In this document: positions 19,374-38,230 of the stretch, in pieces
Layout of the letters: every line of letters starts with the position of its first letter
Position numbering within the stretch: position 1 is the stretch's first letter
Assembly (NCBI RefSeq): GCF_001463745.1
Contig: NZ_BBWJ01000030.1
Location: 1 to 64,000, forward strand
Direction: 5' to 3'
DNA from: Aureimonas sp. AU22
GTDB lineage: Bacteria > Pseudomonadota > Alphaproteobacteria > Rhizobiales > Rhizobiaceae
DNA: 64,000 nucleotides
Made by a program: the position numbers and the translations under genes
Notes under the pieces: generated by a model
The model's database searches: none
What the model saw: only the letters and a program-made list of their open reading frames with translations
What the model was told of the DNA's origin: nothing

Positions 19374-19709
19374 GACCTACCCATCAACGTTCACTCCAGC
19401 CCGCTCCGTTTCCCATGACCGAAAGTCTGGAGGAGCCGAGCTCGTACTTCTACCCAATCTCGACGTTCCCGGCATTTTCATGAGGGGCCGATAGCTGACA
19501 GGCCGCTTTCGGTACAAGTAGCCTAAAATGCAGTCATTCAATATGGCTAGTTTGCCGACACTGACGTGGACCTATCGCTGTTCTTAGGCTTGGTACAGAT
19601 ACAGCGACCGACGATGCAGATCTTGGGTCCAGTGTTGCGCGCGGTGACGTTCGATACTCCAAAGCCATATTGAAACGTAACTGGAAAGTGCTTTACCCCG
19701 CTACTCGTC
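19374..19709. other. Intergenic region without recognised feature
   Basis: About 335 bases, noticeably lower in GC than its neighbours. It should hold the promoter of the gamma-glutamyltransferase operon at its left end. GGCCGCTTTCGG near 19500 resembles the dispersed GTCCGCTT motif. No gene or hairpin with a T-run was seen. Confidence 0.4.
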
Positions 19710-20648: not shown

Positions 20649-20673
20649 GGCCGGTGCCGGTCGTCGCCGCGGC

Positions 20674-22278
<1,605 letters not shown>

Positions 22279-22286
<8 letters not shown>

Positions 22287-22941: not shown

Positions 22942-22951
22942 CGAGCGTTCC

Positions 22952-23593
22952 TCACATCGCCAGCCGGTTGGCCTTCCGCTCGGCCAGGGACTGCAGTTTG
23001 ATGAGGATGCCGATCATGATCATGTAGAGGAGCCCGGCGGCGAGGATGGGCGGCAGCGGCTGGTAGGTCACGGCGCTGATGCGGTTGGTGACGCGCGTGA
23101 GGTCCACAAGGCCGATGATGGCGATGGCCGGGCTGCTTTTGACGAGGAACGACATCTCGTTGACGAGGCCGGGAAGGCTCGTCGTGATCATCTGCGGCAG
23201 CATGATGTGCCGGAAGAAGGTCACGGGCGTCATCCCGCAGGCATAGGCCGCCTCGCGCTGCTCGCGCGAGAAGTTCAGAAAGGCGGTGCGCCAGATCTCA
23301 GCGTTGAAAGCGGTCGTGTTCAGCGTCAGCGCGAGGATCGCGGTCGTCGTCCGGTCCAGGGGCATGCCGAAGCGGGGCGCGGCCAGGAACAGGAAGAGCG
23401 CCAGCGTGACGAGCGGCGTGGCGCGCGCGAGGCTGGTATAGACGGCAAGCACTTGATCGAGCACCGGGACCCGGGCGGTGCGCAGGAGCGCCACGCCGAG
23501 GCCGAGGACGAGGCCGAGGGCGATGGCGGCGCCCGAGATCCAGAGCGTAACCCAGGCGCCTTCCAGAAGCAGTAGCCAAGCTTTTTGCGTCAT
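22952..23593 (-). CDS. Amino acid ABC transporter permease (first)
   Basis: A 213-residue polar amino acid permease. It has 'SLARATPLVTLALFLFLAAPRFG', 'TTAFNAEIWRTAFLNFSREQREAAYACGMTPVTFFRHIMLPQ' (the EAA loop) and 'FLVKSSPAIAIIGLVDLTR'. About five transmembrane helices are present. It is the first membrane component after the binding-protein gene in the operon. Specificity lies in the binding protein and cannot be told from the permease. Confidence 0.95.
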   Translation of the reverse strand: MTQKAWLLLLEGAWVTLWISGAAIALGLVLGLGVALLRTARVPVLDQVLAVYTSLARATPLVTLALFLFLAAPRFGMPLDRTTTAILALTLNTTAFNAEIWRTAFLNFSREQREAAYACGMTPVTFFRHIMLPQMITTSLPGLVNEMSFLVKSSPAIAIIGLVDLTRVTNRISAVTYQPLPPILAAGLLYMIMIGILIKLQSLAERKANRLAM

Positions 23594-23663
23594 GTGGCCC
23601 GCGATCGAAGATGGTCGTGTCCGGTGTCGGCCGCCGCGCCTGGACAGCGGGCGGCCGGCGACG

Positions 23664-24554
23664 TCAGTTCAGCTCGGCGAGCGTGTGGAACTGCTCCACA
23701 TCCTTGATCGGGTCGGTTGGAAGATTGGGAAAAGCTTCGCCGAACCACTTGGCCTGGAGCGCGGCGAGCCGGCCATTGTCGCGCACCTCCTTCATGAAGG
23801 CGGTTGCGAACTCGAGGAGTTCAGGGCTTTCCTTCGGCATCGGCCAGGCTGCGAAGCCGGCACCCGAGACGGCGATGCCCTTCTCGAAGGCGTCGCCCTT
23901 GGTCTTGACGAGGTCGTTAATCGAGATCAGCGCGTTGATGACGTAGTCGAGGCGCTCGTTGGCGAGGTCGGCATAGGCTTCCGGATAGGACTGGTACTCG
24001 ACCACCTCGCCGATTTCGCAGTTCTTGTCCGCCATCATCTTCTTGAGCTCGGGCAGCCGCGCGAGGAGTGCACTGCCGGCCTGGAGCCCGACGGTCTTCC
24101 CGCACAGGCTGGCGATGTCTCCGATCCGGTCGTCGCCCTTGCGCTTGACGTAGTAGTGCTGAGCGGAGGCGAAGGGCGGGGCGAAATTGAAGACGCGAAG
24201 CCGGTCGTCCGTGACGAGCGCACCGGTGAAGGCCATGTCGTACTGGCCGGACGAGACCGAGGCCAGGAGGCCGGTCCAGGGCAGGATCTCCTGCTTGACC
24301 TCGAAACCCTGTTTCTTGGCGAACGCCTGCAGGTCCTCGAGGAGTTCCTTGTGGAAGCCCTCCGGCTGGCCGTCGACGATGAAGTTGAACGGAGCGTAGT
24401 CGTCCTCTGTCGCGACCGTCATAACGCCCTTGGCCTTGATGTCGGCCATGTCGGCCTGGGCGGCGGACAGGGACGACACGAGTGCGCCGGCCAAGGCGAG
24501 GCCGTGCAGGAGATTGATCGGCTTCACGGCCTTGGCCATCGTCGTCATGCGCAT
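23664..24554 (-). CDS. Periplasmic amino acid-binding protein (SBP family 3)
   Basis: A 296-residue precursor with signal peptide ('MAKAVKPINLLHGLALAGAL', cleavage near SAAQA) and the family 3 fold. 'GVMTVATEDDYAPFNFIVDGQPEGFHKEL' and 'DYDMAFTG'-like 'QYDMAFTGALVTDDR' are clear. It has two cysteines, in 'ASLCGKTVG' and 'DKNCEIGE', a pair often joined in this family. The start at 24554 has AGGAG at six bases; the longer frame to 24758 crosses the operator region and is rejected. It delivers its ligand to the permeases downstream. The ligand is unknown; the context points to an amino acid or amine that needs transamination. Confidence 0.93.
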   Translation of the reverse strand: MRMTTMAKAVKPINLLHGLALAGALVSSLSAAQADMADIKAKGVMTVATEDDYAPFNFIVDGQPEGFHKELLEDLQAFAKKQGFEVKQEILPWTGLLASVSSGQYDMAFTGALVTDDRLRVFNFAPPFASAQHYYVKRKGDDRIGDIASLCGKTVGLQAGSALLARLPELKKMMADKNCEIGEVVEYQSYPEAYADLANERLDYVINALISINDLVKTKGDAFEKGIAVSGAGFAAWPMPKESPELLEFATAFMKEVRDNGRLAALQAKWFGEAFPNLPTDPIKDVEQFHTLAELN

Positions 24555-24654
24555 CGGAGGCTCCTGTTGTTCGAAACGCTCTCGGCGAAAAGCGCGGCCT
24601 GTGGGCCTGATTGCTGCCGGAATGGGCGGATCATAGGAATGCCTATTCCGGCAG

Positions 24655-24666
24655 CGATAGGACCAG
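24655..24666 (-). promoter_or_regulatory. Candidate MocR operator, inverted copy
   Basis: CGATAGGACCAG, the exact reverse complement of the box at 24771-24782; the identity extends to GCGATAGGACCAGTTT. A partial copy (ATAGGAATG) lies 24 bases to the left. It is placed about 100 bases upstream of the binding-protein gene. Confidence 0.65.
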
Positions 24667-24748
24667 TTTTGCAGCGCGCTCGTGTCAGCGTGCGCTGCAC
24701 GATCCGAGCCCCCGCCGTCACAGGCCTCTCGCAATTTCAGTGGGTTGC

Positions 24749-24782
24749 CTGGTCCCATCGGTAGGCGAAACTGGTCCTATCG
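24749..24782 (+). promoter_or_regulatory. Candidate MocR operator, direct repeat pair
   Basis: CTGGTCCCATCG (24749-24760) and CTGGTCCTATCG (24771-24782) are direct repeats 22 bases apart, two helical turns. MocR regulators such as TauR bind directly repeated CTGGAC/CTGGTCC-like boxes, so this is the expected operator architecture. Confidence 0.7.
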
Positions 24783-25089
24783 CGCCACAAAAATCCGCTC
24801 CTAGGATCGCGAACGGCCGGTGACGGACCCTTGGGAACGGGGATCGCCGCGCCCCAGATCACGTCCCTAAGGGGACCTCAGGACCTGACCCATGCGCACT
24901 GCATATTCTGCAGACAGCCTGGGCGCCTCCACGTCAGGGGCGCCGTCGCGCCGCTGCCCGACCCTTCGGCGGACCCGTGATGTGGACCGCCTTTCGCGCC
25001 GCCGCCGCGTGCCGAACGGGACGGCCCGTGTCGGGCTGTCTGGCGTGGATTTTGCATGGGATTCCGTCGCATGTGCTGCGGAGACCCAG

Positions 25090-26583
25090 ATGATCGACCA
25101 CTTCCTTCCCGTCCGTTTCGAGCTGGGGCGCGGGTTGCAGGAACAGCTGCGCGAGGCGCTGGTCTCGGCCATCCTCGGCGGCGGCTTTCCGGCCGGCGAG
25201 CCCTTGCCCTCGTGCCGCAAGCTGGCGGACCAGCTGCGAGTCTCCCGCAACACCGTGAACCTCGTCTACGAAAGCCTTCTCGACAGCGGCTACATCGTCA
25301 GCCAGCCGCGCCGCGGCTTCTTCCTGCATCCCGCCTATGCCGAGGGACGGGCTTCCATGCCAATGGGCCAGGCCCCCGAGGATGGCGAGAACGCCGGGGT
25401 GGAGGCAGGCGACGCCGGTGCGCCCGACTGGGAGCGGCGCTTCAAGCTCCGGCCGGGCATGACGTCCGGCGTCTTCCGGCCGCAGGACTGGGCGCGCTTC
25501 CCCTATCCCTTCGTCTACGGCCAGCCGATGCGCGATCTGTTTCCGCTGGAGCGCTGGCGCGAGGCCTCGCGCAAGGCGCTGCGCCGCGAGACCGCGCCCT
25601 GCTGGCTGCACGACCGGTTCGACCGGGACGACGACATGCTGGTGGAGCAACTGCGCACCCGCGTCCTCCCCAAGCGCGGCATCTGGGCCAAGCCCAACGA
25701 GATCTTGGTCACGTTGGGCTCGCAGAACGCGCTCTATCTCATCGCCGCACTTCTGATGAACCGCCAGACGCGCGTGGCAATGGAGACGCCGGGCTTTCGC
25801 GACGCGCTCTCGATCTTTGAGCTGCACGGCGCCGACGTGCAGCTCCATCCGATCGACGAAGAAGGCATCGTGCTCGCGCCGCGGATGGCCGAGTGCGACT
25901 ATGTCTACCTCACGCCCAGCCATCAGGTGCCCACGGGCATCGTCATGAGCGTCGTGCGTCGCGACCGGCTGATGGACGGCATCCGGCGCAACGACCAGAT
26001 ACTGATCGAGGACGACTACGACGCCGAACTCAACCTCGACCGCGACGCGCTCCCCGCCATCAAGGCGGGCGATGCGGGCGGGCGCGTCATCTATCTCAGC
26101 AGCCTGTCCAAGCCCTTCTCGCCGGGCCTGCGCCTCGGCTATCTCGTGGCCGACGCGGACCTCGTCGACGAGCTGCGCTCACTGCGCCGGTTGATGTACC
26201 GCCATCCGCCGCTCAACAACCAGCGCATGATGGCCGAGTTTCTGGCGCAGGGCTATTACGACGCGCATCTGCGATCGTTCCGCGCCGAACACGCCCGCCG
26301 GCGCGACCTCCTGCATGGGGCGCTCTCGCGCGACCTCGACGCCTGCCGCCAGATCGGCTCGCCAACCGCCAGCGCCTTCTGGCTCGCGGCGCCGGGCGCC
26401 ACCGACACGCGCAAGCTCGCCTGGGCGGCCGCGCGCCAGGGCGTCGTCTTCGAATACGGCGAGCAGTTCTTCTTCGAGGGCTCGGCCCCCACGAATTTCA
26501 TGCGCCTCGGCTTCAACGCCATCGAGGCCGAGCGCATCGGCAAGGGGGTCGAGCTGCTGGCCCGGTGTCTCGACCGGATCTGA
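25090..26583 (+). CDS. MocR/PdxR-family regulator (GntR winged helix fused to aminotransferase domain)
   Basis: A 497-residue MocR-type regulator. Residues 13-80 are a GntR winged helix ('LREALVSAILGGGFPAGEPLPSCRKLADQLRVSRNTVNLVYESLLDSGYI'). Residues 150-497 are a fold-type I aminotransferase-like domain with 'LIEDDYDAEL' and the PLP Lys near 341 in 'SSLSKPFSPGLRLGY'. Such proteins use PLP as effector or sense an amino compound through it. ATG 25090 has CGGAGA upstream; longer starts are possible. It is divergent from the ABC importer and precedes the aldolase and aminotransferase genes, so it probably controls both arms through the CTGGTCC repeats. Confidence 0.93.
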   Translation: MIDHFLPVRFELGRGLQEQLREALVSAILGGGFPAGEPLPSCRKLADQLRVSRNTVNLVYESLLDSGYIVSQPRRGFFLHPAYAEGRASMPMGQAPEDGENAGVEAGDAGAPDWERRFKLRPGMTSGVFRPQDWARFPYPFVYGQPMRDLFPLERWREASRKALRRETAPCWLHDRFDRDDDMLVEQLRTRVLPKRGIWAKPNEILVTLGSQNALYLIAALLMNRQTRVAMETPGFRDALSIFELHGADVQLHPIDEEGIVLAPRMAECDYVYLTPSHQVPTGIVMSVVRRDRLMDGIRRNDQILIEDDYDAELNLDRDALPAIKAGDAGGRVIYLSSLSKPFSPGLRLGYLVADADLVDELRSLRRLMYRHPPLNNQRMMAEFLAQGYYDAHLRSFRAEHARRRDLLHGALSRDLDACRQIGSPTASAFWLAAPGATDTRKLAWAAARQGVVFEYGEQFFFEGSAPTNFMRLGFNAIEAERIGKGVELLARCLDRI

Positions 26584-26700
26584 TCCTCCGACCGGGCGCG
26601 CCGTCCGAGCCCGTCCGCACCCGATCGCCGCCGGACCGACCGTCCGGCGAAGGACGCCCCGCGTCCGCTCCGTCCAACGCCTGAGAGGAGACCACCCACC

Positions 26701-27492
26701 TTGGCCCACGAATTCACCGTTCAATCCGGCGCCCCCGCGGTGCTCCGCAACCAGTCGCTGGACACCGACGCCGTGCGCCAGACACGGATTGATCTGGCCG
26801 CCTGCTTCCGCATGGCCGCCCGGCTTGGGCTGCAGGAGGGCATCTGCAACCACTTCTCCGCCCTCGTGCCCGGCCATGACGACCTCTTCCTCGTTAATCC
26901 CTATGGTTGGGCCTTCGCGGAGATCAGCGCGTCCAAGCTCCTGATCTGCGATTTCGAGGGCCGCGTGATTGCGGGGGAGGGCCAGCCGGAGGCGACGGCC
27001 TTCTACATCCATGCCCCGTTGCACCGGGCGCTGCCGCGCGCGACGGCCGCCTTCCACACGCACATGCCCTATGCGACCGCGCTCGCCATGACCGAAGGGC
27101 CGCCGCTCGTCTGGGCCGGGCAGACGGCCCTCAAGTTTTACGGCCGCACCGCCGTCGACGAGGACTACAACGGCCTCGCGCTCGACGAGAGCGAGGGCCG
27201 GCGCATCGCCGGAACGATCGGCGCGGCCGACATCGTCTTCATGAAGAACCATGGCGTCATGGTGCTTGGCCCCACGATCGCCGAGGCTTTCGACGACCTC
27301 TATTACCTAGAGCGCGCCGCCGAGGCGCAGGTAAAGGCTCTGTCCACCGGCCGCCCGCTGAAGCCCATCGAACCCGCTGTCGCCGAGCGGGCCTACCGCC
27401 AGATGCGCGAGGGCGACCCGGAAAGCGCGCGGCTGCATCTCGAAAGTGCCAAGCGCCAACTCGCGCGCTCCGAACCCGATTTCATGCACTGA
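26701..27492 (+). CDS. Class II aldolase/adducin-family protein
   Basis: A 263-residue protein of the class II aldolase/adducin fold. Motifs are 'CNHFSALVPGHDDLFLVNPYGWAFAEISASKLL', the metal-binding H-x-H in 'AAFHTHMPYATAL', and 'KNHGVMVLGPTIAEAFDDLYYLERAAEAQ'. Enzymes of this fold cleave or isomerise hydroxy-carbonyl compounds with a divalent metal. The start is TTG 26701, with AGGAG upstream; the next ATG would remove conserved sequence. It lies between the MocR regulator and the aminotransferase, 41 bases from the latter, in an apparent catabolic operon. Confidence 0.9.
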   Translation: MAHEFTVQSGAPAVLRNQSLDTDAVRQTRIDLAACFRMAARLGLQEGICNHFSALVPGHDDLFLVNPYGWAFAEISASKLLICDFEGRVIAGEGQPEATAFYIHAPLHRALPRATAAFHTHMPYATALAMTEGPPLVWAGQTALKFYGRTAVDEDYNGLALDESEGRRIAGTIGAADIVFMKNHGVMVLGPTIAEAFDDLYYLERAAEAQVKALSTGRPLKPIEPAVAERAYRQMREGDPESARLHLESAKRQLARSEPDFMH

Positions 27493-27533
27493 TCCCCGAT
27501 ACGATCCCTTCCCCCGACCGAAAGAGGCCTGCC

Positions 27534-28910
27534 ATGAACGCCGTTCCCCAGCCCAACGACATGCGCCCTGTCATCGAAGCCGACCGCCGGCATGTCTGGC
27601 ACCACATGCTTCAGCACAAACCGCTGGAGACCAACGATCCGCGCATCATCGTGGCGGGCAAGGGGCTGAAGGTCTGGGACGCGGCGGGGCGCGAATATAT
27701 CGACGCGCTGTCGGGCGGCGTCTGGACGGTGAATGTCGGCTACGGCCGCGCGTCGATCGCCGATGCCGTGCGCGACCAGCTCGTGCGCATGAACTACTTC
27801 GCCCAGTCGGCCGGCTCGGTTCCGGCCGCACGCTTCGCCGAGAAGCTCTTGGAGAAGATGCCGGGCCTGTCGCGCGTTTACTTCAACAACTCGGGCTCGG
27901 AGGCCAACGAGAAGGTCTTCAAGATGGTGCGCCAGATCGCGCAGCGCCATCATGGCGGCAACAAGTGGAAGATCCTCTACCGTGAGCGCGATTATCACGG
28001 CACCACAATCGGCACGCTCGCCGCGGGCGGACAGCCCGAGCGCGCGGCCATGTACGGGCCCTATCCCGACGGCTTCGTCATGGTTCCCCACTGCATGGAG
28101 TACCGCAAGCAGTGGGAAGCTGAGAACTACGGCGAGCGCGCCGCCGATGCCATCGAGGAGGTGATCTTGCGCGAGGGGCCGGAGACCGTCGGCCTCCTGT
28201 GCCTCGAGCCGATCACAGCGGGCGGCGGGGTCATCGTGCCGCCGAAGGGCTACTGGGAGCGGGTGGAGGAAATCTGCCGGAAATACGACATCCTCCTACA
28301 TATCGACGAGGTCGTCTGCGGCCTCGGGCGCACCGGCACCTGGTTCGGCTACCAGAACTTCGGCATCCAGCCCGATTTCGTCACGATGGCCAAGGGTGTC
28401 GCGTCCGGCTACGCCGCGATCTCCTGCACCGTGACGACGGAAGCCGTGTTCGAGATGTTCAAGGACAGCGCCGATCCGATGGCGCACTTCCGCGACATCT
28501 CGACCTTCGGCGGCTGCGCTGGCGGGCCGGCGGCGGCACTCGAAAACATGCGCATCATCGAGGACGAGCATCTTCTCGACAACTGCCTCATCATGGGCGC
28601 GCGCCTGCGGGCAAACCTCGAAGCGTTGAAGGATAAGCACGCCGTAATCGGCGACGTGCGCGGCATGGGCCTCTTCCAGGGCGCAGAACTGGTGAAAGAC
28701 CGTGCCACCAAGGAGCCGGTGGACGAAAAAAGCGTAGCTCGGGTGATCGCCGAAACCACGGCGCGCGGCGTCATGATCGGCGCGTCCAACCGCTCAGTAC
28801 CTGGGCTCAATAATGTCCTTTGCCTAGCCCCTGCGCTCGTCGCTAGTGCGACCGAAATTGACACCATCACCGCAGCCATCGACGGAGCACTTACTGTCGT
28901 CTTCGCCTAG
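27534..28910 (+). CDS. Class III aminotransferase, taurine-pyruvate aminotransferase-like
   Basis: A 458-residue PLP-dependent omega-aminotransferase. Family landmarks are 'DALSGGVWTVNVGYG', 'NNSGSEANEKVFKMVRQ', 'ERDYHGTTIGTLAAGG', 'HIDEVVCGLGRTGTWFGYQ' and the PLP Lys near 287 in 'TMAKGVASGYAA'. The N-terminal 'DRRHVWHHMLQHKP' and overall pattern recall taurine-pyruvate aminotransferases, but no sulfoacetaldehyde enzyme or TauABC importer is in the window, so the amino donor is open. ATG 27534 has AGAGG upstream. The enzyme probably removes the amino group from the compound brought in by the neighbouring ABC system. Confidence 0.9.
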   Translation: MNAVPQPNDMRPVIEADRRHVWHHMLQHKPLETNDPRIIVAGKGLKVWDAAGREYIDALSGGVWTVNVGYGRASIADAVRDQLVRMNYFAQSAGSVPAARFAEKLLEKMPGLSRVYFNNSGSEANEKVFKMVRQIAQRHHGGNKWKILYRERDYHGTTIGTLAAGGQPERAAMYGPYPDGFVMVPHCMEYRKQWEAENYGERAADAIEEVILREGPETVGLLCLEPITAGGGVIVPPKGYWERVEEICRKYDILLHIDEVVCGLGRTGTWFGYQNFGIQPDFVTMAKGVASGYAAISCTVTTEAVFEMFKDSADPMAHFRDISTFGGCAGGPAAALENMRIIEDEHLLDNCLIMGARLRANLEALKDKHAVIGDVRGMGLFQGAELVKDRATKEPVDEKSVARVIAETTARGVMIGASNRSVPGLNNVLCLAPALVASATEIDTITAAIDGALTVVFA

Positions 28911-29384
28911 TTGTTGATTGGCTGGCCGATGCGGTCGCGTGCGTCTGGCCAGCCACCCATCCGCAATGAAATCACGATGAATGTAGCCGGATGCAACAGT
29001 CAGCATCGCTCAATTCGAATTCGCTTTGGGGCCGTTAGCGGTCGTCCCGGCGAAGGACTGGGAGTGGCAGCTTTCGTCCCAATACCAGTCGATCTGACAG
29101 CCGCTCGGAGCTCATGTCATGAACGGCAGGTTTCAGGATCGCGCGGGATCAGCTTGAACGGCTGAAATGGGCGCAAAGCTGCCACTTTGAGAATAAGGTA
29201 GACCAAACGTTAACCACTAACACAACTCAGCGTGCCCGGAGCTGGTTCAGCCGTCGATGCGTGTTATGTTGCTGGATGCAGGTCCATGTCCTGCCGGCGC
29301 ACCACGCCGTTCACTGGCGATCGCCAAGGGGTTAGCGGCCCCGAGGCGATCTGACCGCAACGAAGCTTGTAAGGAGCATTCGCC
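28911..29384. other. Intergenic region with possible repeat remnants
   Basis: About 470 bases without a supportable gene. The stretch near 29033-29085 (GTTAGCGGTCGTCCCGG then GGCAGCTTTCGTCCC) resembles the dispersed GTCCGCTT-type repeats. No terminator with a T-run follows the aminotransferase gene. Confidence 0.4.
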
Positions 29385-29570
29385 ATGGCTGACGCCATTT
29401 ACGCCGCGCCTCTGCGCGCAATCAATCCCGCATCGGAAACGAAGCTGACCCCGGGCTGGTCCCACGCCGATGCCGATCCGGCCGTCGGCGCGCCGCCCGC
29501 TGTCGGTCGCGGTTTCATGACCGCCGGCTCGCCGGACGCACCGAGCCCGTCCGTGGCACAGATCGGCTAG
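29385..29570 (+). CDS. Possible small peptide gene, 61 aa
   Basis: A 61-residue frame preceded by an excellent ribosome site (AAGGAG eight bases before ATG). The product is Ala/Pro/Gly-rich with no transmembrane helix ('MADAIYAAPLRAINPASE'). No family is recognised. The ribosome site is the only strong support; the composition could equally be chance in GC-rich DNA. Confidence 0.4.
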   Translation: MADAIYAAPLRAINPASETKLTPGWSHADADPAVGAPPAVGRGFMTAGSPDAPSPSVAQIG

Positions 29571-29827: not shown

Positions 29828-30718
29828 ATGTCCATCGAAGCCCTGGTCGACCGCGAGGTCGAAGCCGTCCGCGCTTCGGTTGCCGCGACGATCTATCCCC
29901 CCGATCCGGTGCTCGGCGCCGTCTCGAGAGCAAGCTCGATGGCGCAAGCCTTTGTGCGTCGCCATGGCATGCTCGCGGCGACGGTCCTCGGCCACACGAT
30001 CGACCGCCTGTCGGCCGGTCGCCTGGAGGTGCTGCACGAGGTCACCGTACCGCTGACGCGCGTGGCGGCCGATCTCGTGTCGGCGAACGCTCGCGAACGT
30101 CTCGCCACGATCGACCTGCCGTCCGAAGCGACGTGGACGGGGACGTATCGCCTCGACCTCGTCATCATCAGCGAGGAGCTCGGCATCGCCTGGATCGTCG
30201 AAGTCAAACGAGCGAACGCGGCAACGAAAGGCCACCGCCTCAAGGGCATGCTGCGCCAACTCGATATCGCCCGCCTGTCGGCGTTGCCGATCCTTCGCGG
30301 CTCCTATCGCATCTCGCGTGTCGAGAGCCTTCTCGTCTCGCTCTACGGCGACTCTTCGTGCCCTGACATTCTCGATCGAAGGTCGCTCGACGCGTTCTTC
30401 GGCCTGCCGATCGAAGCCGAGCTCGATCGGTTGGATGCGGTCTATCGGGCGATGGTGGAGCGCGAGCTCGGATCGCGCGTGCGCAGCGATCTCGCGTTGA
30501 CCGATATTGTCAAAGCGTCCGCCCACCGGGATGTCGGCCGATCGGCTGAGGGTACATCGGCCGGCTTCGGCGAAGATCACGCGGGAGGGGGCGAGACGGA
30601 GGTCCTGCCCAGCACGCGGCCGGCCGACCTGTTCCGGGTCCGCCCGATCCTGTCCGAGCCGTTCGAAGAGGCATTCCCCGGACCGTCGATCGGCAACTGG
30701 GGAGGGCGCCTGTCATGA
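29828..30718 (+). CDS. PD-(D/E)XK nuclease-like protein, first gene of the AAA/M41 operon
   Basis: A 296-residue soluble protein not recognised as a named family. Residues 60-150 have the spacing of a PD-(D/E)XK nuclease core: E71 in 'LHEVTVPL', D110 in 'TYRLDLVII', E125 and K127 in 'WIVEVKRAN', and 'MLRQLDIARL' like the QxxxY helix. The N-terminus is helical and the C-terminal 50 residues are low-complexity and acidic. ATG 29828 is chosen; an in-frame ATG at 29753 would add 25 residues. Its stop overlaps the next start (ATGA). The nuclease assignment is inference from motif spacing only; it could be a catalytically inactive relative. Confidence 0.7.
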   Translation: MSIEALVDREVEAVRASVAATIYPPDPVLGAVSRASSMAQAFVRRHGMLAATVLGHTIDRLSAGRLEVLHEVTVPLTRVAADLVSANARERLATIDLPSEATWTGTYRLDLVIISEELGIAWIVEVKRANAATKGHRLKGMLRQLDIARLSALPILRGSYRISRVESLLVSLYGDSSCPDILDRRSLDAFFGLPIEAELDRLDAVYRAMVERELGSRVRSDLALTDIVKASAHRDVGRSAEGTSAGFGEDHAGGGETEVLPSTRPADLFRVRPILSEPFEEAFPGPSIGNWGGRLS

Positions 30719-31032
30719 GCCGTACTTCGGACGCCGATCCCGCGACGGGAAGCAGCTCGCCTCAGAGCCTTACGCATGACGCGATCGATGCCAGACCCAA
30801 CACACCCGCCGCACCGTGTTGTTCGATCGGACCGTTCGTCCTGATCGGGGCCGCCATCCGAGCGGCTCGTCGCGGCGCTGACCCGTGCGAGCTGGGGTTG
30901 CACCTTCTCGCCCTGCGCCGGTACGACGCGCGCCGTCCGGATGCGGCCGTGCGCCTGACGGCAGACTGGCTTGCGAGGCACCTCACGGGTCTGTTGCCGC
31001 TGGTGTCCGGGCAGAGGGGAGGCGACCTCTAA
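30715..31032 (+). CDS. Small protein of the AAA/M41 operon
   Basis: A 105-residue protein with a polar, Ser/Pro-rich first 35 residues and a helical remainder ('IGPFVLIGAAIRAARRGADPCELGLHLLALRRYDARRPDAAVRLTADWLARHL'). No family is recognised. It overlaps the preceding gene by four bases and the following one by one base (TAATG), so the three are translationally coupled. It might be an adaptor or regulator for the ATPase, but nothing in the sequence proves this. Confidence 0.65.
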   Translation: MSRTSDADPATGSSSPQSLTHDAIDARPNTPAAPCCSIGPFVLIGAAIRAARRGADPCELGLHLLALRRYDARRPDAAVRLTADWLARHLTGLLPLVSGQRGGDL

Positions 31033-33227
31033 TGACGCGCACGACCTCAATGAACGCAGCAACGGTGCACAGCATGGGACAGCCGGATGATCCGGCTGTA
31101 CCGACGGTCGCTGGCGGCGACGGTCATGTTGGCGATGCCGTTACGGTCGACGCGACGACCCGGTCCGCCATCCCCGACGCCATCCCTGAGGTGGTGCGCT
31201 ATCGCCGCGACGATCATCGGCGCCTTGCGGTGTCGATGGGGGCCGAGCTCTCCGCCAGCGAGGCAGCCGTTCTCGCCCAGCTCGAAGCGCAGATGGACAA
31301 TGGCGCGTTGGCCGATCTCGCCGGTCCCGAACGCTGTCTCGTCACCGTGCACCTTGCCGACCCCAAAGGTTGGCGAGATGCGGTCGGGGCGGCGCTGTCC
31401 GCGTTCCTACAGACCTATGCGCTGCCCGCCGATCCCGCCACATTCCTGCCGAGCCATTCGTTCTGGAGCGTGCTGCGCCAGACCGAGGTCGACCGCATCC
31501 TGTCGCAGACGGGTGACCGCTGGCATGCGGTGACTGGCGCCTTTACGGCGAACCGGGCGGTGGCTGCGATCCTCGACGGCGGCCACGATCCCCTCGATGA
31601 CCTCGCCGATCTGCGCCTTCGCATCGACGGCTTCGATGCGGACGCGGTGGCGACAGGGCTCTACCACCACTTTGCGGTGCAGGCGGGACCCTTCCAGCCC
31701 ATGCCGGACGAAGGGGAGGAGAGCAGCGATGGCCGTGACGAGAATGCTGGCCCACGCTCTGCAGGCCGCATCCCGATCGATGACCCGCTGTACCAGCAAG
31801 CAAAGGGTATTGCGGAGCGCCTGGCCAGGATCGGGCTGTCGGCCCTGACGCCGGACCTTCTCGATCTCGCCTGCACCAAGGCAGGCCGCATCGAGGTCGC
31901 CGAAGCTATCTTGGCACGCGGCCTGTGGTCGGCGTCGCGGCGTGGAACGCCGGCGGGCGGAAGGGAGGGCACTGTTCAGAACCTCGCGCTGGACGAGTTG
32001 CCGGCATACGAGGCGGTACGGGGTTGGGCGCAGGCGCTCGCCGACGACATCCGTTCCTTTGCCGCGGGCACGTTGGCTTGGCAGGACGTCGACCCCGGGG
32101 CACTTCTCACCGGGCCGCCGGGGACGGGCAAAACGCTCCTGGCGGCGGCAATCGCCAAGAGCGCCGGTGCACGCTTTATCGCGACATCGTTCGCCGACTG
32201 GCAGGCCACGGGCGACGGGCATCTCGGCTCGACGCTTCAGGGCATCCGGCGCGCGTTCGAGGAGGCGCGCAGCCAGTCGCCGACGGTTCTGTTCATCGAC
32301 GAGATCGACTCCGTTCCACAGCGTGACAGCAGCCGGCGTCACGACGGCTACTGGCGGGCGATCGTAAACTCTCTCCTGGAGGAGCTGGACGGGACCGGCG
32401 GCCGTGAGGGCCTGATTGTCCTGGCTGCCTGTAACGACGCCGATCACTTGGACCCGGCTCTGGTCCGATCCGGCCGCCTTGATCGCGTTGTCCTCATCGA
32501 TCTTCCGACGGCTCAGGACCTTTGCGAGATCGTGCGCCATTACCTGCCGATGGTTGGCGAAGCGGAAGTCATGCAGATCGGGCACGCGCTGGCGGGCAGG
32601 ACGACCGGCGCGGACATCGCTCGCATGGCGCGCGAGGCGCGGCAGCTGGCAAGGCGCGACCGGCGTCCGGTCACCTCTCGTGATGTCCTGCAGGTTGCCA
32701 TGCCGCCGGACAATCGCTCTCCAGCCCTGCGGCGGCGCATTGCCGTGCACGAGGCGGGCCACGCGGTGGCGCTCTTGTCGATGGGGCTTTGTCCCTCCAT
32801 CGTATCCATCCTGCCGGGGCCCGAAGGGTCCGGGGGACAGGTCAGGATCGGCTCGATCGGCTCAGGGGAGGGGCTTCTTCGAGATGTCGAGGCCGCGGTC
32901 ATCGTCGCTTTGGCTGGCCGGGCTGCGGAGGAGATCATCCTCGGCGAGGCTTCTGCAGGAGCCGGTGGTGGGGACCTGTCCGATCTTGCGCAGGCAACAC
33001 AGCGCCTGGCTCATCTGGAAAGCCAGATGGGTCTGGGCCGCTCGCTCGTTCATCAACAGCAAGTCGATGCGCGGGACATCGATCGGCGTCTCCAGCGCCT
33101 CTATGGGGAAGCGCAGATGATCGTGCTGCGGTATCAGGCGGCCGTTCGAGAGATCGCCGACGAGCTTCATACGAAGCGGATATTGAGTGGTGGGGCACTC
33201 AGAGTCCTGTTTTATGAAGGGGCTTGA
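31032..33227 (+). CDS. Soluble AAA+ ATPase fused to an M41 (FtsH-type) metalloprotease domain
   Basis: A 731-residue protein. Residues 1-315 are a unique N-terminal region with no transmembrane helix. The AAA+ module has Walker A at 361-368 (GPPGTGKT), Walker B at 419-426 ('VLFIDEID') and the arginine-finger region 'RSGRLDR' at 479-485. The M41 protease follows, with HEAGH at 573-577 and the third zinc ligand probably D651 in 'DLAQAT'. FtsH is membrane-anchored; here the anchors are replaced by a large soluble domain and the aromatic pore motif (FVGxG) is not kept. It would unfold and degrade protein substrates in the cytoplasm. It is co-transcribed with the two preceding genes. Confidence 0.9.
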   Translation: MTRTTSMNAATVHSMGQPDDPAVPTVAGGDGHVGDAVTVDATTRSAIPDAIPEVVRYRRDDHRRLAVSMGAELSASEAAVLAQLEAQMDNGALADLAGPERCLVTVHLADPKGWRDAVGAALSAFLQTYALPADPATFLPSHSFWSVLRQTEVDRILSQTGDRWHAVTGAFTANRAVAAILDGGHDPLDDLADLRLRIDGFDADAVATGLYHHFAVQAGPFQPMPDEGEESSDGRDENAGPRSAGRIPIDDPLYQQAKGIAERLARIGLSALTPDLLDLACTKAGRIEVAEAILARGLWSASRRGTPAGGREGTVQNLALDELPAYEAVRGWAQALADDIRSFAAGTLAWQDVDPGALLTGPPGTGKTLLAAAIAKSAGARFIATSFADWQATGDGHLGSTLQGIRRAFEEARSQSPTVLFIDEIDSVPQRDSSRRHDGYWRAIVNSLLEELDGTGGREGLIVLAACNDADHLDPALVRSGRLDRVVLIDLPTAQDLCEIVRHYLPMVGEAEVMQIGHALAGRTTGADIARMAREARQLARRDRRPVTSRDVLQVAMPPDNRSPALRRRIAVHEAGHAVALLSMGLCPSIVSILPGPEGSGGQVRIGSIGSGEGLLRDVEAAVIVALAGRAAEEIILGEASAGAGGGDLSDLAQATQRLAHLESQMGLGRSLVHQQQVDARDIDRRLQRLYGEAQMIVLRYQAAVREIADELHTKRILSGGALRVLFYEGA

Positions 33228-33293: not shown

Positions 33294-34595
33294 TCAGTTC
33301 GTGTAAACTTCCGACGCACTGATATCGTAAACGGGCCGTTCGTTCGACAGAGCAAAATTTACGAGCGGCATCGGAATCCCAAGGAATGCAGGGCGTATAT
33401 GCTCACGCATCGGTTCCAGACGCTTTTCGTTATCCAACATTGATCGAAGGCCCCAATACGCAAAATACGCGTGATGCGATCCTTGAGCAGGTATAATACC
33501 CCGCCGGCGGCATCGGGCCACAGCAATGGCAGCTTGGGTGACAGTTCGAAAGGATGCGCGGCTCGGGAAGAGCTTCAGAATGTCAATTTCATAACGTGAC
33601 GCGACTTCTATCGCCAGTAATAAAAATAAGAACGGTTCGTATAGGGCTGCATTTCGAAAACCAATGGCCGCGATCGCTTCGAGGGTAGGTAGCATCTGGT
33701 GGGGTCGTTCGCTGATTACGTGAGCGACGCCGGCACTGTAGCGGTTGTTTTCCAGGCAATATTCGACAGACTGACCCTTCAATGGCGACTCGTTTGCCTC
33801 TTGGCGCATCAACTTGTGTCCATCGTGGACTGTCTTCGCGAGCGCGCGCATTTGAGCGAGTACGATCAAAATTACCAATTCTCGCTGCACATTGGGATCC
33901 GGCTCTCTTTCAAGCAGCGAGACCGTTTCCTCCGTCAACAGATCTCGCATATTGCTTGGTCTGAGCGGTTGCGGGACGCGAATCTCCTTTTCAGCGTCGG
34001 CAGGATCGCTGAAAAGTCGTTGGAATTTCGTTCGTCCCTCTTGCGCGAGTCGCTTCAAATGTTCCCCGATCTGACCATCTCGATCGGCATCAGGACCGGT
34101 CTTCGCGTAAAGTTGTAATGCGGGTTCGATATGCCGTGCGAGCGCGTCGCGAATAGCCGGGCCGTCGCGCTTCGGCTTGCCTCCGGCCCGTTGAACGAGG
34201 ATTGTCATCGTTCGATCGAGCTGCATCGCAAACGCGCTGTGTAAATCTTCTTCAACCGAATCCGCACGGGGAGACCGATAGGGTGGAAGCGGGTCAGTCG
34301 TTGAAGCCGCGGATAAGCCACCGAGGCTGACAAGATACTGGCCGCGCTCGACGAGGACCTCACGCGATGCTGCGCCATGCCCTGTGGAGAGGGCACCTTT
34401 TGCAAAGAGATCATCGCTTGGCTCAAAGGTGGCTTCGCGGGACGCGGCCGAAGTCCAGAAGGCCTCGATAACTGCGGTCTGATTGGCGAAGGCCTGCAGA
34501 ACTTCGGCCCGAAACCTCATCATATCCGCGATGGGCGGTACGTCAGGCGACGCTTTGCGATACAAGAATTGCAGTGGACGCAAGGTGGTCTCCAA
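33294..34595 (-). CDS. Hypothetical protein, about 433 aa
   Basis: A long helical protein with no recognised domain. Landmarks are 'LARHIEPALQLYAKTGPDADRDGQIGEHLKRLAQEGRTKFQRLF', 'RELVILIVLAQMRALAKTVHDG' and a C-terminal 'HHAYFAYWGLRSMLDN'. The first codon of the longest frame is TTG 34595 with no clear ribosome site; ATG 34523 is an alternative, so the N-terminus is uncertain. GC is lower than in flanking core genes, which fits acquired DNA. It converges on the AAA/M41 operon and may belong to the same element. Confidence 0.65.
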   Translation of the reverse strand: METTLRPLQFLYRKASPDVPPIADMMRFRAEVLQAFANQTAVIEAFWTSAASREATFEPSDDLFAKGALSTGHGAASREVLVERGQYLVSLGGLSAASTTDPLPPYRSPRADSVEEDLHSAFAMQLDRTMTILVQRAGGKPKRDGPAIRDALARHIEPALQLYAKTGPDADRDGQIGEHLKRLAQEGRTKFQRLFSDPADAEKEIRVPQPLRPSNMRDLLTEETVSLLEREPDPNVQRELVILIVLAQMRALAKTVHDGHKLMRQEANESPLKGQSVEYCLENNRYSAGVAHVISERPHQMLPTLEAIAAIGFRNAALYEPFLFLLLAIEVASRYEIDILKLFPSRASFRTVTQAAIAVARCRRRGIIPAQGSHHAYFAYWGLRSMLDNEKRLEPMREHIRPAFLGIPMPLVNFALSNERPVYDISASEVYTN

Positions 34596-34759
34596 GTCGG
34601 GAGTGGCTAGAGCGGTCGCTCGTGCGACAAGCCGTAGCTCCTGGATGCAGTCACCGTCGCCGATTCGGGTTTAGGAAAAAAGGGGGACTCCGCGAATGGC
34701 AGGGTCAGCCTGTCAAGGAAGCGTCATCAAGGGTGCTGCTACCGAAAAACGATGTTCCC

Positions 34760-34777
34760 CGCGGCCATTAGGCCGCG
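34760..34777. terminator. Stem-loop at the end of a minus-strand frame
   Basis: CGCGGCC and GGCCGCG form a perfect seven-base stem with loop ATTA. It includes the TAA stop of the start-less minus-strand frame that follows the ParA-like gene. No T-run is present on either side, so its role as a terminator is uncertain. Confidence 0.35.
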
Positions 34778-35030
34778 AGGAACTGCTTCAGTCGGTCGAT
34801 GATGTTTGAAATTTGCGACGCTAGTGGATGATCACGTCGCCAGCGCTTCACAGCTTCACCTCGAACGAGCTGATCGCGTTCTATCAGCCATTCAATGAAC
34901 GTACTGCGATCGGCGTGGACAGATGCTTGAAGGAGAGCTAGCAGCAGTTCCTGTTCCGAGCGTGCGGCGATAAAACGTTCGTGTGCAGATGCCCGCTCCT
35001 TGCGGAATGCTTGACGATGTAGGTTAGGTC
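34768..35030 (-). CDS. Coding-like frame downstream of the ParA-like gene, no clear start
   Basis: On the minus strand, the frame ending in TAA at 34768 encodes about 85 residues of natural-looking helical protein. It includes 'RKERASAHERFIAARSEQE', 'LLQASVHADRSTFIEWLIERD' and 'SQISNIIDRLKQFLAA'. It has no ATG, GTG or TTG at a sensible place and begins within the last codons of the ParA-like gene in another frame. It is either a frameshifted former extension of that gene, a gene whose start was lost, or one using a rare start codon. Confidence 0.4.
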
Positions 35031-35821
35031 GAGACGGTGTTCTCTCCGGGAAACGGCAGGCGATCGAATTGCCTCCGGAGCGCGTCCTGCCATGTCACGA
35101 GTTCGCTCCAGATACCCCTTGCCAGAGCGCGGGAGGTGCCAGCCTCCATAAGGCGCGCGGTTGCCTCATGCAGTGACAGCTGCGCCAGACGGTATGGCGA
35201 CTGTCCGGTCCGCTCGACGGCCGCCAAGGCTCGCGGCAGGAGTCTTGGATGCTTGATCAGAAGGCGATCTCCTTCGATCGCCTTTCCCAAGCGCTGGTGC
35301 TCTTTGGAAAGATCTTCGACACGATCTCCCGTCTCAGCAAGAACAGGAACAATCACGGCATCTGGCAAGACGAGCGTCGCGCGCTTGATCGAGCGCGTCG
35401 CGAGCAGCATGGCATCGTGCTCAAGGAGGAACGGGGTGAACACTGCGACCTTGTAGCCGCTTTCGGATGCAGCACCCGCGATATCAAGTTTCAACAGAGT
35501 TTCGAGAACGCGCGCATCGACGCTCCCAGCGACATCGACGGCGATGATAGGCGAGCGTCGATCCAGGATCTGGTCGATCAGCGGGGATAGGGCCTCGACG
35601 TCGGCAAGGTCGTCGTGTCGTACCGCTTCAATGTCCGGCAGCTGGATGGTCGTGACGCGATCCGGGAACAGCGCGCGCAACCGCGTCTGGTCGTCGATCT
35701 CGTAGATCAGGAAGTCGCTGACCAATGCCGAAAGATAATCAAGGAATGCGATCAGCGTCGAGCTTTTTCGCACGCCCCCCTTCTCGCTAATAAATAGGAA
35801 AATCCACATCGCGGGTTCCAT
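35024..35821 (-). CDS. ParA/MinD-like ATPase with altered P-loop
   Basis: A 265-residue protein of the SIMIBI/ParA fold. The N-terminus 'MWIFLFISEKGGVRKSSTLIAFLDYLS' aligns with the deviant Walker A (KGGxGKS/T), but Gly before the catalytic Lys is Arg (KGGVRKSS, residues 14-21). Walker B-like 'PIIAVDVAG' and a later 'VIVPVLAETGD' fit the fold. ParA-like proteins of mobile elements act in segregation or mobilisation. Its ATG follows the TAA of the upstream gene with no spacing. ATP binding may be weakened by the Arg, so it may be a degenerate or divergent member. Confidence 0.75.
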   Translation of the reverse strand: MEPAMWIFLFISEKGGVRKSSTLIAFLDYLSALVSDFLIYEIDDQTRLRALFPDRVTTIQLPDIEAVRHDDLADVEALSPLIDQILDRRSPIIAVDVAGSVDARVLETLLKLDIAGAASESGYKVAVFTPFLLEHDAMLLATRSIKRATLVLPDAVIVPVLAETGDRVEDLSKEHQRLGKAIEGDRLLIKHPRLLPRALAAVERTGQSPYRLAQLSLHEATARLMEAGTSRALARGIWSELVTWQDALRRQFDRLPFPGENTVST

Positions 35822-36277
35822 TTAAACATCTCCATCTCGGTTGAGTTTGCGCATGAGGGCAAGGCGTTCCCCCTGCGCTTCAGAGCCAAGCCCAATGCGA
35901 TCGGAAGATCGGTCATTTAAGTCCAGAACTTTGCTGGGATGGGGTTTGGGAACGGCCGTCGAGCTTCGATCGTCCCTTCTTACAGCGGCCAAATCCATCG
36001 CCGCAGGGGAGTTCTCTGCAAGCAGTGAACGGTTAGAGACGCGCTTCCAGAGTTTACGAAGTGTCGCATCTGATATCGGATGGCGTCCATGTCGCAACAG
36101 CTCTTCCGACAACGCAGTATTTATGCGTGACCATGGCTCGCTATCTCGCCGAGCTTCATCGAGAAGCGGTTTCAAGCGAGCAACGAGATCCGTCATCCGT
36201 CGTGGTCCTAAAGAACCTTCCAGATGGATCTCGACGGCGGTTGCCAGTCGCTTGGCATACGGGGTTAGGTCGCGCAT
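35822..36277 (-). CDS. Hypothetical protein linked to the ParA-like ATPase
   Basis: A 151-residue, basic, mostly helical protein ('YAKRLATAVEIHLEGSLGPRRMTDLVARLKPLLDEARR', 'ISDATLRKLWKRVSNRS'). The second segment could be a helix-turn-helix, so a DNA-binding or mobilisation accessory role is conceivable; no family is recognised. Its stop codon abuts the start of the ParA-like gene, so the two are one operon reading away from the serine recombinase. Confidence 0.6.
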   Translation of the reverse strand: MRDLTPYAKRLATAVEIHLEGSLGPRRMTDLVARLKPLLDEARRDSEPWSRINTALSEELLRHGRHPISDATLRKLWKRVSNRSLLAENSPAAMDLAAVRRDDRSSTAVPKPHPSKVLDLNDRSSDRIGLGSEAQGERLALMRKLNRDGDV

Positions 36278-36578: not shown

Positions 36579-38183
36579 ATGCGTGCCGTCGCCTACATCC
36601 GTGTCTCGACCCGTCGTCAAGCCAATGAGGGGGTCAGTCTTGATGTCCAACGTGACCGCATCAGCGACTTCGTCGCTGGCAATGGCTGGACGCTCTACGA
36701 GACGTATATCGATCGCGGGGCTTCGGCACGTGATGGCGGCAGGCCAGAGTTCCAGAGAATGCTGTCCGATGCAGCTGCCCGGCCATCTCCCTTTGATGTC
36801 ATTGTTGTCTACGACCGAAGCAGATTCTATCGCAACGCTGCCCAAGCCGAAACGACAATCCGCGATCTGCGACGCAACGCAGTCCAGGTTTACTCTGTCA
36901 CCCAGCCGAACGGCAGCGATGAAGCGAGCGACATGATCCGGCAGATCATTGCCGTGGTTGACGAGAACGCTAGCCGAGAAAATGCAAAGCGCGTCCGCGC
37001 GACAATGTGTGAAAATGCCACTCAGGGCTTCTGGAACGGTGCCGTTCCGCCTTACGGTTTCACGACGACGATCGTTGAACGGCGCGGCAAGAAGGAGAAG
37101 AAGAAGCTCGTCATTGACGAGGTTGAGAGCGACGTCGTCGAACGCATCTTCCGACTGGCTGAAGAAGGTCATGAACGTTCGGGACCGATGGGTGTCAAAG
37201 CCATCGTGAATCATTTGAACGAGCGGGGGTACCGTACCAGACGCGATAAGCGATGGCACATCGGACCTTTGCACGCGATGCTGACGAACACCGCCTATCG
37301 TGGCGAGTATCGCTACAACACCACGGACTCTAACACGGGGCTACCACGGCCTGAGCACGAGCATATCAAAGTCGCTTGCCCGGCGATTATCGAGGCAAGG
37401 CAGTTCGAAGCCGTGCAGGCCCTGTTGCGAAGCCGGAACCCGAAAATCGCCGCACCGCAAGTCGTTGCAGGTCCCATTCTCCTCACGGGTCTTCTGTCGT
37501 GTGCAAAGTGTGAGTCAGCCCTCACCATGCGAACCGGTAAATCCGGTCAGTATCGCTACTACGCCTGCGCCAACCGGCAGGCCCGTGGCGCAACCGCCTG
37601 TGCGGGGTGCTCGCATCGGATGGAAAAAATCGACCACGCTGTCACGGAGGCGTTGGTCACTCATGCCTTCCAACCGGATCGCCTCGCCAACATTCTTGAG
37701 TCCATAGAGACCGAACGCCTTACCAGGGAGGCTGACTCCACTGAGCTTCTTCGCTTTGAAACCGAACTCGCCGATGCGAGGATGAGAGTTGATCGACTAA
37801 TGGGGTTGGCTGAACGTGGTATAGCCGATCTGGATGATCCAGAATTTGCCGAGCGTATGCGGAGCGCGCAGCGCGACCGGAATATCGCTCTTGCTGGTGT
37901 GGACCGTATCCGACGGCGAATTGGCTCTCAGGTTGAGATTACACCGGAGCGCGTCGTTGCCTTCGCCAACTTCATGCGAGATCGCATTCGCAACGGCGAC
38001 GTGCCGTTTCGTAAAAGCTATCTACGATCCGTCGTTGACCGCGTGATCGTGGATGATGAGAGGCTGATCATAACTGGTTGGAAAAACGTTCTGCGTGAGC
38101 AGGTTATGATCGATGATAGGAAGGACACCAAAGTGCCCATTGGTATTCAGGAATGGCGCACCCGACAGGATTCGAACCTGTGA
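36579..38183 (+). CDS. Large serine recombinase / integrase
   Basis: A 534-residue large serine recombinase. The resolvase catalytic domain begins '[24 protein letters not shown]', with nucleophile S10 and the Arg cluster in '[14 protein letters not shown]'. The 'recombinase' domain is at about 165-260 and the zinc ribbon at about 305-350 ('[11 protein letters not shown]', '[18 protein letters not shown]'). A coiled coil at about 380-450 and the C-terminal DNA-binding part follow. Such enzymes integrate phages or elements at attB sites. Its last 30 bases overlap the 3' end of a tRNA-Arg gene on the opposite strand, giving the C-terminus '[10 protein letters not shown]'. ATG 36579 has AAGGAAGAA upstream; a TTG three bases earlier is the longest form. 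Confidence 0.95.
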
Positions 38184-38230
38184 CCTCTGCCTTCGGAGGG
38201 CAGCACTCTATCCAGCTGAGCTACGGGTGC
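38154..38230 (-). tRNA. tRNA-Arg (anticodon CCG)
   Basis: 77 bases on the minus strand, with acceptor stem GCACCCG/CGGGTGC, D-arm AGCTCAGCTGGATAGAGT, anticodon stem CTGCC/GGCAG with loop CTCCGAA, T-arm with GGTTCGAATCC, and an encoded CCA end. It reads CGG codons. The 3' end overlaps the end of the serine recombinase gene, making it the likely integration target. Confidence 0.97.

Follow-up and report, generated by a model that had tools for sequence, protein, structure and literature searches.

Why should an FtsH-type protease with no FtsH-like membrane segment be encoded in overlap with a small protein and, ahead of that, with a protein resembling a nuclease? The question is raised by a three-gene operon (g1, g2 and g3) in a 64,000-nucleotide stretch of the genome of Aureimonas sp. 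AU22 (contig NZ_BBWJ01000030.1, positions 1 to 64,000, of assembly GCF_001463745.1), hereafter the window. An original prediction made from the letters of this DNA held that the three genes form an undescribed defence or toxin-control system. We find that they almost certainly belong to a conserved module, and consider it on balance probable that g1-g2-g3 is one form of a modular system, spread horizontally among Alphaproteobacteria, whose AAA+ component would control a nuclease, or deploy it, in protection against phages or other mobile DNA. Computation supports the layout of the operon, the fold of g1, intact active-site residues, recurrent linkage of the genes and the defence-island setting of their relatives. 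The folds are known; a module of nuclease and AAA+ protein with a membrane-free engine of the FtsH type was not found described before, as far as searched. If the reading is true, targeted unfolding or proteolysis by FtsH-type enzymes would be a further means by which bacteria arm immune nucleases or hold them back, and a function would be found for no fewer than three uncharacterised families (g1, g2 and DUF6634) seen repeatedly in islands of Alphaproteobacteria. The swapping of parts between modules would then provide natural experiments for learning what it is that the AAA+ engine recognises.

Organisation and recurrence of the operon

All three genes lie on the plus strand: g1 (29828..30718; 296 amino acids (aa)), g2 (30715..31032; 105 aa) and g3 (31032..33227; 731 aa). 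Each was drawn from the open reading frames (ORFs), with models and homologue alignments for g1 and g3, profiles for g3 and neighbour clustering for g2, the last placing it in a family of 13 members among the fetched loci. The overlaps, ATGA between g1 and g2 (30715-30718) and TAATG between g2 and g3 (31030-31034), fit the claimed translational coupling, and the underlying observation as a whole (reading frames, overlaps, AAA and M41 profiles, and a serine recombinase at a tRNA-Arg gene) is confirmed. Codon-position comparison with genome G015 covers g1 and g3, g2 falling in the gap between two G015 contigs. Over the first 187 codons of g1 the differences at first, second and third positions number 4, 1 and 31 (31 synonymous and 4 non-synonymous codons), and over about 578 codons of g3 they number 28, 20 and 91 (90 synonymous, 34 non-synonymous); because they concentrate at third positions, g1 and g3 evolve under purifying selection. 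A 61-aa ORF upstream (29385-29570) was rejected as a fourth gene, its differences of 8, 4 and 6 carrying no coding signal.

Homologues of g1 are present in 6 of 61 close-relative genomes, 18 of 397 genomes of the order and 12 of 385 of the class, plus one plasmid record; the window's own genome is counted in all three of these figures for genomes. Among the resulting 30 g1 loci, 16 (13 of the first 21, then L184, L185 and L187) carry an M41-type g3 in the same orientation and separated from g1 by no more than two genes, and three more (L153, L158 and L183) carry in the same gene run a Lon-like AAA+ protein, so assigned by eye from sequence and length. With about four soluble g3 copies and some 4,500 genes, the chance of g1 and g3 being adjacent is estimated at well under 1%. 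Recurrence in other genomes, which had been put forward as a check, was therefore borne out. Left out of the count of 30 are L066, a G015 fragment at a contig end whose g3 lies on a different contig; L159 and L186, where gene calling gave no g1; L164, at 50 aa; and two matches, weak and partial, in G745 and G448. For L179, L182 and L184, where stop codons lie inside the matched stretch, gene calls were used instead. A search of genome contigs with g3 returned two loci, one of them strong; its best named match is in A. phyllosphaerae, 92% identical over the matched part, the host genome (G000) measuring 4.6 Mb.

The nuclease-like protein g1

Profile searches of each protein, also proposed at the outset, found no family for g1 or g2 up to an E value of 1 in Pfam, NCBIfam or PADLOC, and identified g3 as AAA plus Peptidase_M41. 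Modelling was more informative for g1. An AlphaFold2 (AF2) model built from an alignment of 20 homologues (predicted local distance difference test (pLDDT) 80.3, predicted template modelling score (pTM) 0.72) is confident apart from the tail at residues 239-296, and the order of its elements, alpha-beta-beta-beta-alpha-beta, is that of a PD-(D/E)XK core, here at about residues 31-171. Foldseek returned 254 matches up to E 10, headed by R2 retrotransposon endonucleases (9.2e-4 and 9.8e-4) and followed by viral cap-snatching endonucleases, Bse634I, RecBCD, AddAB and McrBC at E 0.02-0.15, all of which we take to be PD-(D/E)XK-type enzymes. A second structural aligner again placed R2 first (Z 8.2 over 161 residues), with Upx, a defence protein, at Z 8.0 and root-mean-square deviation (rmsd) 2.9 over 117 residues, the McrC chain of McrBC at Z 6.9 and rmsd 4.5 over 135, and Card1 at Z 6.6. 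A Z near 8 is middling by itself; because the list of structural matches and the active-site residues agree, the fold predicted for g1 can be assigned to the PD-(D/E)XK nucleases with high confidence, as the modelling suggested at the outset was meant to establish.

Those residues are well kept. Across 30 homologues D110 (codon 30155..30157) and R128 are invariant, and K127 occurs in 29; at position 125, the first of the three codons for E125-V126-K127 (30200..30208), E or D is found in 21 rows, S in 5 and N in 4. The complete D-(E/D)xK set is present in 20 of the 30, the window's g1 among them (D110, E125 and K127). The nuclease core first proposed thus stands at D110 and E125-x-K127 and fails at E71, which is E in only 9 of 30 rows and so no feature of the family, while the supposed ‘QL helix’ does not hold up: Q144 is found in none of the 29 other aligned rows. 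The g1 of this genome is probably an active nuclease, for which metal-dependent cleavage of DNA would be expected. A likeness to ribosomal protein uS19 was considered and rejected. In a sequence search of solved structures, 38 matches up to E 10 (best E 0.0016) fell over a C-terminal helical stretch, all of them uS19-type chains except one non-catalytic protein, and they are judged spurious because that stretch avoids the nuclease core.

The soluble AAA+/M41 protein g3

The third gene encodes an AAA+ domain (residues 316-560; 31977..32711) followed by an M41 protease domain (residues 561-731; 32712..33224), matched by PF00004 at 110.5 bits and by PF01434 at 39.7 bits against a cut-off of 29.9. 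Both active sites appear intact. The HEAGH zinc motif (H573-H577; 32748..32762) supplies H573, E574 and H577, which, like D651 (codon 32982..32984), by M41 homology the third zinc ligand, show no variation across the 33 aligned rows. Equally invariant are G361, G364, G366 and K367 of Walker A (K367 at 32130), D423-E424 of Walker B (32298), and R479 and R482, which we take to be the arginine fingers. No FtsH-like membrane segment precedes the AAA domain and its Walker A motif, the best 19-residue hydropathy being 1.03 against 2.3-2.7 in four FtsH proteins; among 47 members of the family a single one exceeds 1.8, and that one (L083) groups with FtsH on the tree. Profiles, alignment and hydropathy therefore agree with the description of g3 as an FtsH-type AAA+ core with HEAGH and without a membrane anchor. 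The absence of the usual aromatic pore motif was likewise correctly seen: the F-V-G of FtsH is H-L-G in the window, the pore phenylalanine being replaced across the family by H (28 of 33) or Y (5 of 33), and W390, seven residues upstream of the pore position in the window, is invariant in all 33 rows. Against the curated FtsH equivalog TIGR01241, g3 scores 177.6 bits where the cut-off is 600, and a long, fully supported branch of a 49-row tree separates the four FtsH proteins and L083 from the rest.

Ahead of the AAA+ core lies an N-terminal alpha/beta domain (about residues 65-305; 31224..31946), delimited by the AF2 model and by structure and profile comparison. It had been called unique, and this was mistaken, since relatives share it. 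The g3 model (pLDDT 77.4, pTM only 0.48) most closely matches structures of FtsH (Z as high as 30.2, at rmsd 6.0 across 381 residues); residues 61-558 also align with the proteins NVL, p97 and Rix7, but at rmsd 16.5-17.6. In hhalign the profile of the N-domain reaches 12% over 37 columns with g3's own AAA profile, as against 0.79% with the AAA of TnsC, 0.19% with M41 and 0.33% with g1. A decayed AAA domain is a possible identity for it.

Matches of g3 in phage records number 27 records; among the matches listed, about a quarter of g3 is covered, comprising the AAA core and the start of M41, and those bearing product names are mostly annotated FtsH. PADLOC matches are confined to the AAA core, stray weak ones aside. 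At five loci (L047, L049, L149, L151 and L157) the AAA+ and M41 parts are separate adjacent genes, each with its own motif, a natural split of unfoldase and protease; L048 shows the same split, its zinc motif lying in an uncalled frame.

Exchange of parts between modules

The genes recur as a unit, as was predicted of the trio, whereas its membership is not fixed: g2 can give way to a DUF6634 protein, g3 to a Lon-like AAA+, and g1 to a TnsA-like or a roughly 96-aa protein. Because its parts are interchangeable, ‘trio’ is too narrow a term. A small gene (up to 190 aa) lies within -20 to +60 bp upstream of 27 of 45 g3-family genes of at least 400 aa, 23 of these overlapping, and 25 of the 27 belong to g2 or to a second family, c0. 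A c0 member scanned against DUF6634 scores 26.7 bits, just below the cut-off of 27, and a Bosea c0 member is annotated as DUF6634. In hhalign comparisons g2 was not connected to DUF6634 or to family c4, nor g1 to TnsA-like families (all below 1%). When the g1 label is mapped on the g3 tree, five changes are needed and at least three are forced by well-supported branches; three changes may equal one gain and two losses. Partnerships between g1 and g3 thus appear to have been swapped several times, as gains or losses.

In other modules the first slot, that of g1, holds a protein of family c2 (TnsA-like), c4 or c6 (small, about 96 aa). Against a family annotated TnsA, c2 scores 93.6% in hhalign over 159 columns, and c6 scores 57.7% over 59 columns against part of c2; the DxK lysine of c2, read by eye, is apparently lost. 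The likeness to TnsA lends some substance to a different account, in which the genes serve the mobile elements themselves: g1, or the TnsA-like protein in its place, would join the AAA+/protease in processing DNA or in remodelling complexes of the recombinase when the element integrates, is excised or transposes. At least seven loci (L051, L056, L062, L070, L072, L085 and L086) carry TnsA-like and TnsB genes within a few kb, with TnsC where the stretch or record shows it, and L185 and L187 adjoin serine recombinases, as read by eye. Yet modules are found with serine recombinases, with other integrases, with Tn7-like transposons or with no evident recombinase, and because this context varies they do not track any one mobile machine; defence cargo, moreover, is usual in such elements. 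We regard a role in the mobile machinery as unlikely.

Returning to the module as a carrier of defence, its engine is as exchangeable as its first gene. In the Lon-like AAA+ proteins of L153, L158 and L183 only 207-211 residues follow Walker A, leaving no room for a Lon protease domain, and because a protease-less protein stands in for g3 at these three loci, remodelling is suggested as the step shared by the modules and proteolysis as a common addition.

Several relatives deserve description in their own right. The window's own genome contains three additional modules that encode a soluble AAA+/M41 protein and differ in their first genes (L051, L052 and L053, on contigs 40 and 51), of which L051 additionally carries a DnaQ-like exonuclease, so named by eye, and TnsABC-like genes. 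At L153, L154 and L158, g1 is followed by a metallophosphoesterase and a gene of the DUF6634 family (c0); no AAA+ gene was seen at L154, where the next gene resembles DUF2130. Short g1 relatives at L178-L182 adjoin Mrr-like, methyltransferase-like or ImmA-like genes (names read from sequence), and are perhaps stand-alone nucleases of islands or prophages.

The defence-gene neighbourhood of relatives

A role in defence or against mobile elements is suggested by the company that g1 keeps. At least 9 of 21 g1 loci have a known-defence gene within four genes, and a looser count of 13 adds a weak LmuB (L152), a DNA methyltransferase (L157) and type IV-like matches (L162 and L163); these neighbours are single genes, completeness of a system having been examined solely for an annotated CBASS. 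PADLOC assigns DrmD of DISARM at L045 (772 bits), HamB of Hachiman at L046 (982 bits), a type III enzyme at L149 (1102 bits), type IIG enzymes at L151 and L158 (896 and 444 bits), ZorA of Zorya with RT-Cas1 at L150 (929 and 289 bits), a pAgo with its TIR partner at L153 (719 and 1059 bits) and LmuB of Lamassu at L156 (289 bits). L086 adjoins the annotated CBASS operon and a Tn7-like set, and genes read from sequence as HsdRMS lie beside g1 at L183. No PADLOC match was found for the scanned neighbours of L047, L048 and L049 (one each) and L160 (three). Thirty of the 150 neighbours of the 21 loci were scanned singly, those of L154, L155 and L161 in the pooled set only.

Taken together, the 150 neighbours match 540 PADLOC families at E 1e-5, whereas a control set of 147 proteins, drawn from 18 regions elsewhere in these genomes, matches 130. 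The comparison is rough, family counts including several models per protein; the pooled set had lost 3 of 153 proteins (chromosomal genes of the window, scanned separately) and the control set 8 of 155. Ten large control proteins, hand-picked and scanned singly, gave no PADLOC match, the Zorya genes mentioned below not being among the ten. Relatives are therefore set among defence genes and mobile elements that are far commoner than in rough controls, and we consider a defence or anti-mobile-element role, read from these neighbours, fairly likely. The 52 chromosomal proteins of the window match four PADLOC families at 1e-10, three of them (mad3, mad8 and AriA) apparently generic; a weak match to SduA of Shedu (E 2.6e-13) was seen in one of these proteins.

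Points against and alternative readings

A number of observations weigh against a nuclease-armed defence module. As to the fold, just 2 of the 254 Foldseek matches reach E 0.001, the top Z value, about 8, counts as middling in the aligner's own note and denotes likeness at the level of fold only, and V/A-type ATPase chains stand at ranks 40 and 42 of the list. As to linkage, neither type of AAA+ gene is in view at 10 of the 30 g1 loci (short g1 forms of 214-246 aa account for 7 of the 10), one more (L181) is cut by a contig end, the g3 copy of L184 is broken by a transposase-like gene, and that of L150 is apparently out of frame after HExxH and before D651; since many loci are related pairs (L047/L048, L185/L187, L045/L150 and L155/L156), the counts are not independent. 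As to setting, one control region carries a Zorya set and another control match is PifA, no recognised defence gene was found among the three genes scanned beside the trio in the window's own island, and islands gather cargo of many kinds. The predicted undescribed defence or toxin-control system is partly upheld: in its recurrence, in the fold of g1, in the solubility of g3 and in the setting of its relatives. Its putative defence role is read from the neighbours of those relatives, in other islands than its own.

The active site supplies a further point. Nine of the 30 g1 proteins have S or N in place of the acid at position 125 and one more has I in place of K127, therefore some members may not cut DNA. 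The whole family might accordingly be non-catalytic, g1 serving to bring in the AAA+/protease, either as a regulator or as a subunit that binds DNA, a role with which the occupation of its slot by c2 and by the small c6 would be consistent. The conservation of D110 in all 30 rows, of K127 in 29 and of the full motif in 20, the window included, is nevertheless hard to explain without catalysis, and we think a non-catalytic g1 very unlikely.

The ten loci without an AAA+ gene in view bear on another possibility, that of an addiction (toxin-antitoxin-like) module stabilising the island, with g1 as a nuclease toxin that is removed by g2 and g3 for as long as the element is present. A lethal toxin would not be expected to occur so often without its antidote, and the Lon-like proteins of three loci are too short for a protease domain; on the other hand, translational coupling, a small adaptor-like g2 and an intact protease motif would all suit addiction, as would the XRE-type regulators that lie divergent to g1 at seven loci (L045, L150, L153, L156, L158, L184 and L185). 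We hold addiction to be decidedly improbable, with the proviso that defence and addiction overlap and the two are only partly separate explanations.

A proposed mechanism

For the defence system that we favour, the following scheme may be offered. The DNA-acting part would be g1, as a PD-(D/E)XK nuclease. The product of g3 would work in the cytoplasm as an AAA+/M41 enzyme able to unfold, and also to degrade, a protein partner; g2 would be a small adaptor whose synthesis is tied to that of g3 by the overlapping stop and start codons. Together g3 and g2 would hold the nuclease in check, or position it, by ATP-driven remodelling, until invasion altered this control and g1 cut DNA. The mechanism is a guess, in which we infer both the physical complex and the direction of control; that g3 specifically restrains g1 is put forward only tentatively.

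More speculatively still, and with some doubt on our own part, the modules could represent a new plug-and-play class of defence, in which a former membrane FtsH relative, having gained a decayed second AAA domain and kept its protease, serves as a remodelling engine for interchangeable DNA-acting subunits and small adaptors (g2 or DUF6634). The DNA-acting subunit would then be the PD-(D/E)XK protein g1, a TnsA-like protein without nuclease activity, or a protein consisting of little more than a winged-helix-like fold, and the engine would sometimes be a Lon-like AAA+ or be split into unfoldase and protease genes.

The island in the window

The operon was said to lie beside an integrase at a tRNA gene, and so it does: a large serine recombinase (36579..38183, plus strand, by gene call and profile; the listed ORF starts at 36576) runs with its 3' end into the 3' end of tRNA-Arg (ccg; 38154..38230, minus strand, by tRNA scan), the likely integration site. 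A second copy of the tRNA-Arg 3' end, which would mark the left boundary, was not found within the window. Because the match to genome G010 ends at 29040 and that to G015 begins at 29202, the left edge may lie near 29.0-29.2 kb. Immediately to the left of the stretch common to G015 and the window, about 110 bp (29070-29185) are some 83% identical to scattered sites in other Aureimonas genomes, and are possibly an element end or a dispersed repeat. Between trio and recombinase (33294-36277) are three minus-strand island genes without a strong family match, one of them weakly MinD/ParA-like (CbiA, 14.6 bits, below cut-off). In G010, sequence related to the serine recombinase (L126; 64% over 822 bp) lies near that genome's own tRNA-Arg, a few kb from a region syntenic at 88% with positions 19485-29040 of the window; the tRNA-Arg region of G010 is perhaps an integration hotspot.

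Comparison with known systems

To our knowledge no membrane-free M41 protease has been placed within a defence operon. Among open-access literature searched by title and abstract, no such M41, FtsH or metalloprotease defence system was found, nor any paper on DUF6634 in the open-access literature. PD-(D/E)XK nucleases and a CHAT protease are counted among defence domains in part of the text of PMC10952713, where the main text as available holds no occurrence of ‘FtsH’.

The nearest parallels each share one aspect of the module. The Lon-like AAA+ that replaces g3 at L153, L158 and L183 recalls BrxL of BREX and other Lon-like defence ATPases; among the neighbours scanned singly, however, BREX matches were only secondary, on the helicase of L045 whose best match is DrmD of DISARM. 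Tn7-like elements likewise set a PD-(D/E)XK protein, TnsA, beside an AAA+ protein, and TnsA-like proteins fill the g1 slot in relatives, but g1 has no match to the TnsA-like profile (hhalign 0.44%) and TnsC is not an M41 protease. IetAS joins an AAA+ ATPase with a protease in a defence setting, and IetA matches g3 at 84.4 bits over the AAA core only (residues 357-552). It differs in that the zinc M41 domain of g3 is fused to the AAA+ and accompanied by a nuclease-type gene, whereas IetS is a subtilisin-type serine protease; no protease family that could represent such a partner was found by PADLOC or Pfam among g1, g2 and the three scanned island genes. McrBC resembles the module in that a PD-(D/E)XK subunit works with an AAA+ ring, and its structure aligns with g1; McrB, however, is an AAA+ protein that is driven by GTP, carries a domain for reading DNA and lacks a protease, and no sequence relation of McrBC to the trio emerged from the Pfam, NCBIfam and PADLOC scans. 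FtsH itself differs from g3 in its membrane segment, in the pore phenylalanine that is H in the window and in lacking the extra N-domain, and g3 falls far below the equivalog cut-off and stands apart on the tree; even so, the AAA+ core joined to an HExxH M41 domain (TIGR01241, PF01434) is common to both, and FtsH structures remain the top matches of g3.

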